Shown here piece by piece: positions 33,413-49,263 of a DNA stretch of 64,000 bases. The notes beneath the pieces are model-generated. The model saw only the letters and a list, made by a program, of their open reading frames with translations. It did no database searches and was not told the DNA's origin. Position numbers and translations under genes: made by a program. Position 1 is the stretch's first letter. Each line of letters begins with the position of its first letter. The DNA is from Mesostigma viride (Eukaryota; Streptophyta; Mesostigmatophyceae; Mesostigmatales; Mesostigmataceae). Location of the stretch: contig RPFO01000213.1 of the NCBI GenBank assembly GCA_009746045.1, forward strand, positions 3,738,956-3,802,955, written 5' to 3'.

Positions 33413-33671
33413 TTACAGCGTCGTGCTGCTGAAGTACTCGTCCGGCGTCTCGGCCTCGTGCTTCGCCTGCATCGCCTTGAGGCGCGACGAGATGACGTGG
33501 AAGAGTGGCCGGTGCTCTGGGTTGCGGTGCCAGCAGTCCTCAATGAGCGCGCGGAAGTCCAAGGGGGTCGACTCGGGGATCTCGGGACGTTGGTCGCGCT
33601 CGGTGACCGCAAGCGCCACCTGCACGTTGTGCTGCAGGTCGCTGAACGGCATCTGGCCCGTGACGAGCTCC
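33413..33671 (-). CDS. Kinase exon 13: end of the C-lobe and stop
   Basis: It reads ELVTGQMPFSDLQHNVQVAL, then a helix RALIEDCWHRNPEHRPLFHV containing the conserved Arg of subdomain XI. It ends about 30 residues later (EYFSSTTL) at TAA 33413-33415. All kinase subdomains are intact. Confidence 0.85.
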
Positions 33672-48600: not shown

Positions 48601-49263
48601 GACCAGACGACGCATGAAACATCGAAGCAAACGAGCGCGTAGGTAGGAAGGGGCCGGTCAAAAGGGTGCCTAATGCTGAAAGTGGTCCCGTGTTGCTTAT
48701 ACCAAGCACAGTGCACCGCTACTAAGCAGTCTTAGTCTTCAGGGCGCCCTTAAGAACTGAACCTGTCGTGAAAATGAATAAAGAACGGTCGAAGCTCCTA
48801 GGCACGCGACGCCATCCCATGAGATGAACAACTACAGAACCATGTCATCTGGTTTGCTCGCCAGGCAAGACGACGACGCCGGCCATCACCTTGGCAGGTT
48901 TGGCAAGCTCACCTGGTGTCCCGAGGTGGCGATGCTGCGTAAATGCGCCGTCAGGTGATCCCCCCAAACAACGCATTGCTCCTTCACCCGCTGATGCCGC
49001 TCTTCCGCAAGCTGCGTGCGGAGGACTGCCCATACCGTGATGGCGACGCCAACTCCTAAAACAAGGACTGCGACCAGCAAGAACTTTATTCCCAAATCCA
49101 ACCTTCCTTCCTGCGAACGGCGTCGCCGTAGCAGGCGGGTTATACGGCCAGGACATGGAGCCTGTGCGTCGTCCGGCAGCGCGTGTATGGCTGGCTCGTA
49201 CGAAGCCAAACCGAGATCAATCGCCTGCAACCCCGACTGCGATCCCGACTTCGTCTGCTTCAT
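33413..49263 (-). CDS. CHASE-domain receptor-like TKL protein kinase, about 13 exons, about 2370 aa
   Basis: Exons (minus): 48913-49263, 47774-47881, a small one near 47217-47301 (uncertain), 46361-46606, 45137-45750, 44331-44837, 43590-43653, 38897-42679, 38051-38305, 36890-37215, 35571-35844, 34424-34686, 33413-33671. All but the small one have GT..AG ends and consistent phases (split codons AG|C, GG|C, AG|C, TG|G). The order is: start ATG at 49263; membrane span at residues 59-81; a predicted extracellular region resembling CHASE; a second span; coiled coil; a long low-complexity region; and a complete kinase domain ending 30 residues before the stop. It is probably a surface receptor that phosphorylates Ser/Thr (or Tyr) in response to a small ligand. 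The stop sits in CTGTAA, which contains a TGTAA motif. Introns have C-rich 3' ends and unusual donor repeats. Confidence 0.75.
34300..34355 (-). repeat. Copy of exon 12 3' end and donor in the downstream intron
   Basis: Plus-strand GCAGCATTCCGTACGCGTAC matches the exon end at about 34427-34447 (GCAGTATCCCGTACGCGTAC). The GCACCATC/GCACCACA donor context is included. Confidence 0.75.
34424..34686 (-). CDS. Kinase exon 12: DFG to helix F
   Basis: It starts VKVADFGISQILFPKHVRES with the metal-binding DFG, and has a Ser/Arg-rich activation loop, then YRWMAPELMTG (APE motif) and KSDVYAYGILLW with the helix F Asp. It ends phase 2 (TG|GTGCGT), completed by G of the next exon to Trp. Confidence 0.85.
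35160..35206 (-). repeat. Copy of exon 12 acceptor and start (DFG replaced by DFK)
   Basis: On the minus strand, CCCGCAGGTCAAGGCTGCCG copies the acceptor and first codons of exon 12, reading VKAADFKHARK. It could be a decoy, an alternative exon that would lack DFG, or debris. Confidence 0.7.
35571..35844 (-). CDS. Kinase exon 11: catalytic loop
   Basis: It reads SLRTFLERHGGGLDYSAQLV, then ARQVAAGMEAIHASNIIHCD and LKTGNVLL. The catalytic Asp, Lys and Asn are present. HCDLK in place of HRDLK is typical of plant and algal TKL kinases and makes it a non-RD kinase. A 40-residue Gly/Ser/Asn insertion separates beta-7 from the DFG strand. Two possible donors lie 18 nt apart (GAG|GTGGGT inside, GAG|GTATAC at the end), both in frame. 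Confidence 0.85.
35988..36148 (-). repeat. Two copies of exon 10 3' end and donor in the downstream intron
   Basis: The block CACCTGCCGCCGTTC..GC..GGATGCCC at about 35995-36042 and CACCCAACTGCCGCCGTTCA at about 36104-36150 match the true exon end at 36885-36920. The nearer copy still reads LIERMNGGSWV. One keeps a GTGGGT donor; the other has GTTGGG. Confidence 0.8.
36728..36889 (-). repeat. 14-bp tandem repeat starting at the exon 10 donor
   Basis: About ten units of GCACGCAAATAGGG and variants run directly from the donor into the intron. Confidence 0.85.
36890..37215 (-). CDS. Kinase exon 10: N-lobe
   Basis: It starts IEFLGDVLGYGSVSKVVLAR (glycine loop GYGSVS) and continues to GAEVAVKLF with the ATP-binding Lys. 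The alpha-C helix region is FDLLKQRLDMMRWEIMAMRK, with Glu in WEIMAMRKICHPNVIQF. The hinge is LGIVMERMNGG. An insertion (TSGGLNGGDVGGFGEVA) lies between beta-3 and alpha-C. The acceptor follows directly after a run of 21 C. The exon ends phase 2 (AG|GTGGGT) and joins C|CTT to give GGSLRTFL, the classical TKL hinge. Confidence 0.85.
37708..37912 (-). repeat. 24-bp tandem repeat and a copy of exon 9 3' end
   Basis: 37708-37826 has five units of a 24-bp repeat (CCCAGTAAGGCATTCCTGCT core). 37884-37911 (CCCACCACATGCAGCCGGAT) copies the exon 9 end and donor (CCCACCTCATGCAGCGGGAT at about 38045). Confidence 0.7.
38051..38305 (-). CDS. Kinase exon 9: region before the kinase domain
   Basis: 85 codons, phase 0 both sides (CCCAG|GAGTCG; GAG|GTGGGT). 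It reads ESQVIRKENSQASVKVVVRG, then PSVLEMLVQLSVAAQYLAAA and a helix FEEAKQLTLLRD. It looks like a small alpha-helical module. I do not recognise a named domain. Confidence 0.7.
38707..38897 (-). repeat. 32-bp tandem repeat made of exon 8 splice-donor copies
   Basis: Six units of 32 bp run from the end of exon 8 into the intron. Each holds a CACTGACC (sense GGTCAGTG) donor sequence and an AAAT tract. The first unit contains the real donor GAG|GTCAGTG. A 25-bp repeat (AAATTTTCCTA core) follows at about 38645-38706. Confidence 0.85.
38897..42679 (-). CDS. Kinase exon 8: 1261-codon low-complexity cytoplasmic region
   Basis: A single uninterrupted 3783-nt frame, acceptor CGCAG|ATCCTC, donor GAG|GTCAGT, phase 0 both sides. 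It is rich in Gly, Ala, Ser and Pro, with poly-Asn tracts (DNNNNNNIPNN) and a run of alternating Gly with Met/Val coded by a CCCACG/CCCATG hexamer array (40987-41100). Its last 20 codons (YEVCVECSDLADLLVLVSSA region) are ordinary globular sequence, leading into exon 9. Antisense frames of up to 488 codons over this exon are shadows of its GC bias. Confidence 0.75.
43030..43275 (+). repeat. Interstitial telomere-like repeat (TTTAGGG)n grading into (TTGAGGG)n
   Basis: About seven TTTAGGG units are followed by some 25 TTGAGGG variants, inside the intron between exons 7 and 8. A few more TTTAGGG-like units occur at 44197-44220. Confidence 0.9.
43507..43545 (-). repeat. Copy of exon 7 3' end and donor
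   Basis: GGCCCTACCTGCAAAACGTG and the following GCAGCAGCATGG match the true exon end at about 43582-43613, 74 bp away, including a perfect GTAGGG donor. Confidence 0.85.
43590..43653 (-). CDS. Kinase exon 7: 64-nt linker exon
   Basis: The G completed from exon 6 plus FASESQRLQRGTDTMLLHIL and Q, continuing the coiled coil. The donor is TTGCAG|GTAGGG. A close copy of its 3' end and donor lies 74 bp further on in the intron. Confidence 0.7.
43985..44270 (-). repeat. Three copies of exon 6 3' end and donor
   Basis: The true end (CGCACGTACCCATGGATGTC at about 44322) recurs at about 44228 (CGCACTTACCCATGGATGTC), more weakly at about 44152 (AAACGTACCCACGCATGCCC, then CTGGTTGAGGAAC), and weakest at about 43992 (AAACGTACCCCTAG, then CCAGCTAATTGAGAAAC). 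Confidence 0.8.
44331..44837 (-). CDS. Kinase exon 6: Cys-rich juxtamembrane region, second membrane span, coiled coil
   Basis: It starts SHYLGDIALVSMGD. A CMACGA..CGVCSRL cluster suggests a small disulfide or metal knot outside the membrane. The span is WWIWIPSLGVVIIGFLLAYA, followed by a charged helix (AAAREQLRKKNAADLRTVHR) of coiled-coil character, as in linkers that pass dimer signals from CHASE sensors. It ends phase 2 at GG|GTACGT. Confidence 0.75.
44873..44945. repeat. (GGGGGA)n and (GAAA)n in an intron
   Basis: A G-rich purine tract upstream of the exon 6 acceptor; on the sense strand it is an extended C-rich pyrimidine tract. Confidence 0.85.
45137..45750 (-). CDS. Kinase exon 5: CHASE-like domain, second half
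   Basis: The exon reads AYLPIVLNLGQRMHGFDALA, MVDALETGEYVLPGVLTI and later RRVLTILRGVYGGPLS. This matches the CHASE pattern of a Y-x-P strand, a G-F-D motif, an AL..G helix, and a hydrophobic strand ending R-G-V-Y-G. An acidic, Asp/Val-rich insertion sits between the last two. CHASE domains bind small ligands outside the cell (cytokinins in plant histidine kinases). Four Cys in the last third may form disulfides. The exon ends in phase 2. Confidence 0.65.
46010..46375 (-). repeat. ~40-bp degenerate tandem repeat of exon 4 splice donors
   Basis: Units of the form CTAGCRAACATCACCTGGT-YGGCTGCG occur near 46025, 46065, 46155, 46197, 46275, 46315 and 46355 (the real donor), with weaker units between. 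The spacing is 40 bp or a multiple of it. Confidence 0.8.
46361..46606 (-). CDS. Kinase exon 4: CHASE-like domain, first half
   Basis: 82 codons, phase 0 both ends (CACAG|ACCACC; CACCAG|GTGATG). It includes TTLEQMISLLFQSLSG and KADAARWQEVMGMPIWTFS. The exon ends in a PQPQPQPHQ stretch that itself is part of the repeat extending into the intron. Confidence 0.7.
46741..46870. repeat. (GGGC/GGGT/GGTC)n tetranucleotide array
   Basis: Long runs of GGGC, GGGT and GGTC units in the intron between exons 3 and 4. Confidence 0.85.
46988..47185 (+). mobile_element. SINE-like element with 12-bp target duplication in a kinase intron
   Basis: The 198-bp element is flanked by ATGTGCCTCCCC (46976-46987 and 47186-47197). 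An A-box-like TGTGGATAGAGCGCTC and, about 90 nt later, a weak B-box-like GGGTTGCAGGTTCC suggest a tRNA-derived head. The 3' end is the palindrome CACGTGACGCTGTCACGTG followed by a short (TTAA)n tail, shared with the insertion at 24360-24482. Confidence 0.75.
47217..47301 (-). CDS. Kinase exon 3, tentative
   Basis: The acceptor TTCTCGCAG|TGGTCACTGG opens WSLEKLKKLNAVRLPWSES in phase 0. The donor is unclear: AGG|GTGTGT near 47217 would keep phase 0, while an earlier GTTGCC site would not. A SINE-like insertion lies just downstream in the same intron. Confidence 0.35.
47541..47700. repeat. C-rich low-complexity tract in an intron
   Basis: Mostly C with TCC and GTCC interruptions, between exons 2 and 3 of the kinase. 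Confidence 0.85.
47774..47881 (-). CDS. Kinase exon 2: start of extracellular region
   Basis: 36 codons, phase 0 on both sides (GGCAG|GTGGTC and AGG|GTACGT). It encodes VVSAAMRAFSNGTATDARSY and continues to INER. The AMRAFSNG-type segment fits the start of a CHASE fold. An NGT glycosylation sequon is present. Confidence 0.65.
48244..48340. repeat. 37-bp tandem repeat in kinase intron 1
   Basis: Two full units starting at 48244 and 48281 (CACAACGGTACATCTATTAT core) and a partial third at 48318. Confidence 0.85.
48913..49263 (-). CDS. Kinase exon 1: N-terminus with first membrane span
   Basis: 117 codons, phase 0 end (CACCAG|GTGAGC). It begins MKQTKSGSQSGLQAID. A basic patch RLLRRRR precedes the hydrophobic span FLLVAVLVLGVGVAITVWAV, placing the start in the cytoplasm. 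A helical region (ERHQRVKEQC) follows, as in the juxtamembrane helix that opens CHASE sensors. Confidence 0.75.

Follow-up and report, generated by a model that had tools for sequence, protein, structure and literature searches.

Introns of the streptophyte Mesostigma viride gather local direct tandem duplications, some of whose units cross the exon-intron junction. The case was found in a 64,000-nucleotide stretch of contig RPFO01000213.1, positions 3,738,956 to 3,802,955 (the window; C1:3738956-3802955 in our scan of the 439.9-Mb genome, 2243 contigs), where a protein kinase gene on the minus strand (33413..49263) carries, in several introns, copies of the preceding exon end together with its 5' splice site (donor). 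Donor copying is not local to the kinase and recurs in genes on many contigs. We put a probability of roughly 0.6 on the reading that it reflects local tandem duplication combined with tolerance at donors, the first donor still being used and the copies needing no function.

Within the kinase gene, each donor, as a probe spanning positions -40 to +8, was aligned with the intron that follows it, and the score was compared with 200 dinucleotide shuffles. In introns 4, 6, 7, 9, 10 and 12 the copy beat all 200 (p = 0.005), bearing out a first-pass annotation of the window, which had described repeats of the exon end and donor after the corresponding exons. These copies, all on the minus strand, lie at 46303-46266, 46213-46166 and 46083-46033 in intron 4 (exon end and donor CACCAG/GTGATG, the slash marking the junction; z 6.3), at 44268-44226, 44206-44148 and 44053-43988 in intron 6 (z 15.0), at 43497..43564 in intron 7 (offset 72 bp; z 15.2), at 37857..37918 in intron 9 (z 5.8), at 36140-36064 and 36034-35994 in intron 10 (offsets 783 and 890 bp; z 17.9) and at 34306..34342 in intron 12 (z 9.5), with an exon part of ~14 bases for exon 4 and ~21-35 for the others. 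The annotation had listed exon 8 as well, and this is the weak case of the series: a 32-bp array beginning at the donor (38708..38897, minus strand) was marginal (z 3.3, p = 0.015), its units consisting mainly of the donor and adjoining intron, with a weak exon part. Introns 1, 2, 3, 5 and 11 gave no donor copy with this probe and these shuffles. One of the 12 kinase acceptors was also copied, which the annotation had overlooked: the acceptor of intron 11 and the start of exon 12 recur ~520 bp upstream (35166..35206, minus strand; z 7.6). When 48-mers were slid along the kinase exons and scored against the adjacent introns, a score of at least 18 was reached by 34% of 79 near-donor exon windows, 5.6% of 72 near-acceptor windows and 0.1% of 948 exon-interior windows.

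The same pattern had been reported for an unrelated S-adenosylmethionine (SAM) methyltransferase gene (16722..19936, minus strand; an exon ending at 19742, then 18820-18484 and 16981-16722), and we could confirm it, with four decaying copies of TCAGAG/GTGGGT from the 19742 junction at 19320..19666 (minus strand; donor offsets ~101, 184, 294 and 401 bp). The SAM methyltransferase domain match crosses the stitched joins, and the three-exon join is the same in a published protein (P0001, 268 residues, record jgi/Mesvir1/11784; 100% identity across 96% of the query length), in which the first donor is used.

Beyond the window, a profile search of the whole genome for kinesin motor exons gave 129 matches; junctions were taken between neighbouring matches (samples 1 and 2) or, at single exons, chosen by splice-site score (sample 3). 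Donors were copied in 10/26 cases and acceptors in 1/26 in sample 1, and in 7/20 and 4/21 respectively in sample 3. Our main count combined kinesins and kinase, required z of at least 4 and targets of up to 600 bp (which drops kinase intron 10), excluded low complexity and left out three unsafe sample 1 junctions (one with a donor z of 5.8), the methyltransferase and L002 introns and the terminal donor of L048; a low-complexity donor match in L049 was tested and scored as non-positive, the donors of L051 (a GC donor) and L056 were reset by eye and were positive before and after, and L067-L069 stayed outside the counts (z 3.7, with a boundary mis-set by the script, -2.0 and 0.5). A copy in the own intron was thus found for 24/69 donors and 11/70 acceptors (p = 0.011), the kinase alone contributing 5/12 and 1/12 under this rule (p = 0.155). 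In control tests on 49 introns, other introns were matched in only 2/196 cases by donor probes and 3/196 by acceptor probes, and donor probes found no antisense match in their own intron (0/49). Matches in 2/196 tests on other introns, as against 24/69 own ones, support the annotation's statement that this is not one mobile repeat, and one sequence family spread across unrelated introns, as introners or other mobile sequences would give, was not seen.

Some kinesin matches have identical scores on different contigs (C2:6330541-6334132 and C622:17695-21288; also C805, C1104 and C1926) and are probably haplotigs or duplicated contigs. L051, near base 901 on the minus strand, has an apparent GC-AG intron in which the exon end and GC donor occur ~7 times, repeating every 22 bp.

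Underlying the copies is local tandem duplication, which affects non-coding DNA in general. Over the 49 introns, we measured coverage by duplications with a partner within 500 bp, either recent (27/30 identical) or with older ones included (25/30). Recent coverage was 0.11-0.13 at donor positions -20 to +29, 0.04-0.12 on to +200 and 0.135 in mid-intron, and 25/30 coverage was 0.24-0.27 at -20 to +9 versus 0.157 in mid-intron. On the exon side of the junction, duplications were present at 6/49 donors and 0/49 acceptors at 27/30, and at 13/49 and 3/49 at 25/30. The 25/30 coverage fell to zero in shuffled introns and was zero for inverted repeats, so the repeats are direct; 31 of the 36 high-identity clusters were tandem (median offset 31 bp across all 36), and the head-to-tail arrangement with no inverted copies is that of intronic tandem repeats. 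Recent examples are L023, with a 70-bp unit from -23 to +47 repeated at 70/70 identity, and L025, with a unit starting at -28 (81/88) and later copies 83 bp apart. By genomic class, duplication coverage was 0.239 outside predicted genes, 0.038 in predicted introns and 0.009 in predicted exons. Equal-size probes found copies for 18/49 donors (0.37; 20/49, or 0.41, when centred on the junction), 108/502 mid-intron positions (0.215) and 7/49 acceptors (0.14; 9/49, or 0.18, centred), with a median copy offset of 107 bp at donors and 106 bp in mid-intron. Because the repeats are direct, in tandem and equally dense in mid-intron, we take local tandem duplication to be their source. The annotation had proposed a process that repeatedly duplicates sequence across the exon-intron boundary; repeated duplication is borne out, its confinement to the donor is not, given copied acceptors (11/70) and the recent mid-intron coverage. 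It had also named duplications equally common at random intron positions or in intergenic DNA as counter-evidence, and these are what we found for recent events (0.135 in mid-intron, 0.239 outside predicted genes), older copies keeping a donor excess.

The excess of donors over acceptors, about twofold, may arise because copies decay more slowly next to an exon that is conserved, together with the polarity of splicing. A unit spanning the junction copies the last ~10-40 exon bases, the donor and the first intron bases into the intron. In the mechanism that we propose, this should be near neutral if the spliceosome keeps using the first donor; later duplications would enter beside the exon and shift old copies downstream, and at least one array would evolve in concert with its exon end. 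We infer both the neutrality and, in general, the choice of the first donor, which outside the methyltransferase is suggested by profile continuity. An acceptor duplicate close upstream would be spliced in preference to the real one, to the detriment of the mRNA, and acceptor copies would survive mainly far upstream. Consistent with this, 6/24 donor copies and 0/11 acceptor copies lay at offsets of up to 70 bp (donor and acceptor offsets differ, p = 0.017), and the missing near acceptor copies are as expected if a near upstream acceptor would be spliced first, which may reflect selection against them. Donor copies would also remain recognisable longer than copies between intron segments since their exon partner is conserved, which fits an excess limited to older copies.

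Several results weigh against this account. The conserved-exon argument should benefit acceptors as well. When uniform tandem duplication with conserved exons and equal tolerance was simulated under three settings, with unit lengths and rates that are guesses, copies were recovered for 0.10-0.22 of donors, 0.07-0.24 of acceptors and 0.26-0.37 of mid-intron positions; relative to mid-intron, real donors are ~3-4 fold over this expectation, and real acceptors (0.14-0.18) are not under the simulated ratio, which speaks against a general purging of acceptor duplications. The left ends of donor copies, at -8 to -40 (the probe limit of -40 being reached by three), appeared by eye shallower than random units of 70-150 bp would reach. 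In kinesin sample 2 acceptors were copied more often than donors (5/14 and 4/14), and for kinesins alone the difference was 19/57 donors vs 10/58 acceptors (p = 0.055). Among ab initio predicted genes, whose junctions are less certain than profile-located ones, copies at z of at least 4 were found for 3/45 donors (one with a doubtful boundary) and 2/45 acceptors under a stricter penalty, for 2/42 and 1/42 under a looser one, and for 0/13 and 0/13 in an earlier low-penalty set; with so weak a signal there, the genome-wide rate is possibly lower than in kinesins. The low-penalty gene finder had given an excess of false small exons and was dropped for stricter penalties. Finally, there is just one gene for which a published model demonstrates use of the first donor.

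Some of these points would be better explained if duplication were directed to donors, a polymerase pause, an R-loop or a break at the 5' splice site making the junction a hotspot by mutational bias. We regard this as the foremost alternative, though an unlikely one. The three- to fourfold excess of donors over the uniform simulation, with acceptors not depleted, is what it would lead one to expect, as are the exon parts of 8-40 bases within the probe and the signs of repeated events at single donors. Regarding the latter, the annotation had stated that copies decay with distance: in 9 of 12 introns with several copies no other copy was indeed better than the nearest, but across all 41 copies the trend was slight (rho = -0.24, p = 0.13). 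Against a hotspot, donors show no enrichment of high-identity duplications relative to mid-intron, and acceptors are copied too. Nor did a donor-like motif behave as a site of duplication elsewhere: its coverage was 0.129 in antisense orientation in introns (background 0.148) and 0.127 and 0.136 in other DNA (background 0.189), and we rejected it as a candidate. In sense orientation in introns it was above background (0.212, 7/33 sites), a figure that includes the donor copies themselves. Among four-letter words in other DNA, GGTG with CACC (0.30) and AGGT (0.24) were above the base of 0.19. A fuller version, in which the 5' splice junction itself is the hotspot and copying tied to transcription or splicing lengthens introns from the 5' end and keeps coding exon ends matched to the copies in the intron, seems to us a shade less likely again.

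Concerted evolution is suggested by two kinesin paralogues, L023 and L056, which have the same 70-bp array (-23 to +47) in the same intron, the rest of which is unalignable. The first two units agree at 70/70 positions within L023 and at 66/70 within L056, and at 59-61/70 when one gene is compared with the other; of the third unit only the exon-donor part is kept in each, and each exon end has its own gene-specific bases in common with its intronic copies. That the two arrays are in phase suggests an origin before the gene duplication, with homogenisation or re-duplication since, though they could have arisen independently. In the neighbouring intron of the pair (L023, L067), the best-aligned stretch is a donor copy.

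In one pair of paralogue introns the part that aligns is thus a donor array, and in the other the best alignment falls on a donor copy; this could be taken to mean that the copies are functional decoys, extra U1-binding sites that aid splicing or suppress premature polyadenylation. Moreover, in the alignment-based set GT or GC was kept in 34/41 copies, and 15 of these 34 equal or exceed the real donor in score. Duplication does leave decoy-like donors, as the annotation had anticipated; recursive splicing from donor-like copies, many with AG before the donor, is formally possible judging from their sequence. Nonetheless, in exon-anchored copies GT was retained no better than neighbouring bases (25/39, the anchoring being imperfect and one kinase copy counted twice), the offsets of 24 donor copies modulo 3 were evenly split (8/8/8) with no frame bias, and 45/69 donors had no copy passing the test. 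We therefore consider a decoy function improbable.

Still less probable, to the point of being remote, is that the copies are remnants of an intron-making event by tandem genomic duplication: AG immediately precedes the donor in 18/34 donor-keeping copies, giving an AGGT-type segment in about half, but in only 1/49 introns does the 3' splice site carry a copy of the exon end, which lends no support to the earlier suggestion that the process could feed intron gain, and several introns have multiple copies of unequal similarity. An artefact of wrong exon boundaries or misassembly is just as remote, for although some junctions were picked by splice-site score and three of the 26 kinesin junctions in sample 1 were marked as unsafe, the kinase and methyltransferase domain matches cross the stitched joins, the published protein agrees, misassembly does not yield copies at several stages of decay, and the assembly includes PacBio long reads if the genome is that described by Liang et al. 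(2019).

The kinase gene, rebuilt from the sequence, has 13 exons in a single open frame of 2360 codons, with GT/AG at every intron: 49263-48913, 47881-47774, 47301-47269 (this donor placed on frame grounds), 46606-46361, 45750-45137, 44837-44331, 43653-43590, 42679-38897, 38305-38051, 37215-36890, 35844-35571, 34686-34424 and 33671-33413 (minus strand). The stitched protein of exons 9-13 matched the Pfam kinase domain PF07714 (1.8e-47) in two stretches, the best of which (residues 151-302) crosses the exon 10/11 and 11/12 joins. A search with the full-length protein brought 0 of 7990 scored candidates past 1e-20, and the C-terminal part gave 37 matches at 28-34% identity, among them plant kinases, some of which carry the names STY46, STY17 or STY8.

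Other repeats were noted in the same gene: an in-frame 15-bp tandem duplication in exon 12 (34503-34535) that encodes EGTYPEGTY directly before the APE motif, a hexamer array in exon 8 (40981-41118) that encodes a long Gly-Val/Gly-Met run, and a GTTGAGG heptamer array in intron 7 (43004-43280), some units of which read as telomere-like TTTAGGG on the plus strand. The acceptor tracts of the kinase are C-rich, not U-rich, that of intron 9 (37216-37240) being nearly pure C. Upstream of the gene lies a retroelement (52021-55086, minus strand) with a 1021-residue open frame and an RVT_1 reverse transcriptase domain (E 1.3e-21); as a query against phage DNA, this region gave no matches.

The published M. 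viride NIES-296 assembly is described as 441.8 Mb in 2363 scaffolds from PacBio, Illumina and optical map data, and its introns average 1142 bp (PMC6947507). Donor copies in introns are not described among the literature matches listed, nor in the available part of that paper, whose main text, in the form available, has no word starting with "splic". If about a third of donors have near-identical downstream rivals, often equal by score, they would constitute a natural experiment on 5' splice site choice, the rate having been measured in kinesins and one kinase and being lower in predicted genes. Introns can grow in this way through tandem duplication without protein change. Sequence changes can also be common to the end of a coding exon and an array in the intron, and analyses of such exons at codon level could be distorted as a result.

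Introns are reported to be gained when exon segments that carry AGGT undergo tandem genomic duplication (PMC3443670; a potato RdRp case in PMC4974935). As there, an AG/GT sequence within a gene is duplicated, here in about half of the donor-keeping copies, splicing removes the extra copy and coding is unharmed, whereas here an existing intron lengthens and its 3' splice site does not come from the copy (1/49). The arrays resemble tandem alternative donors, as far as the accessible text on these describes them (PMC2423196), in placing several donors in a row, but here the copies take in the entire exon end and lie tens to hundreds of bases from one another, and the additional donors are putative. 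Like ordinary intronic tandem repeats they are direct, local and often multi-copy, with units of tens of bases; unlike these, the unit crosses a splice junction, so that part of a coding exon and a functioning splice site belong to the array, and in the L023/L056 pair gene-specific bases are common to the exon end and its array.

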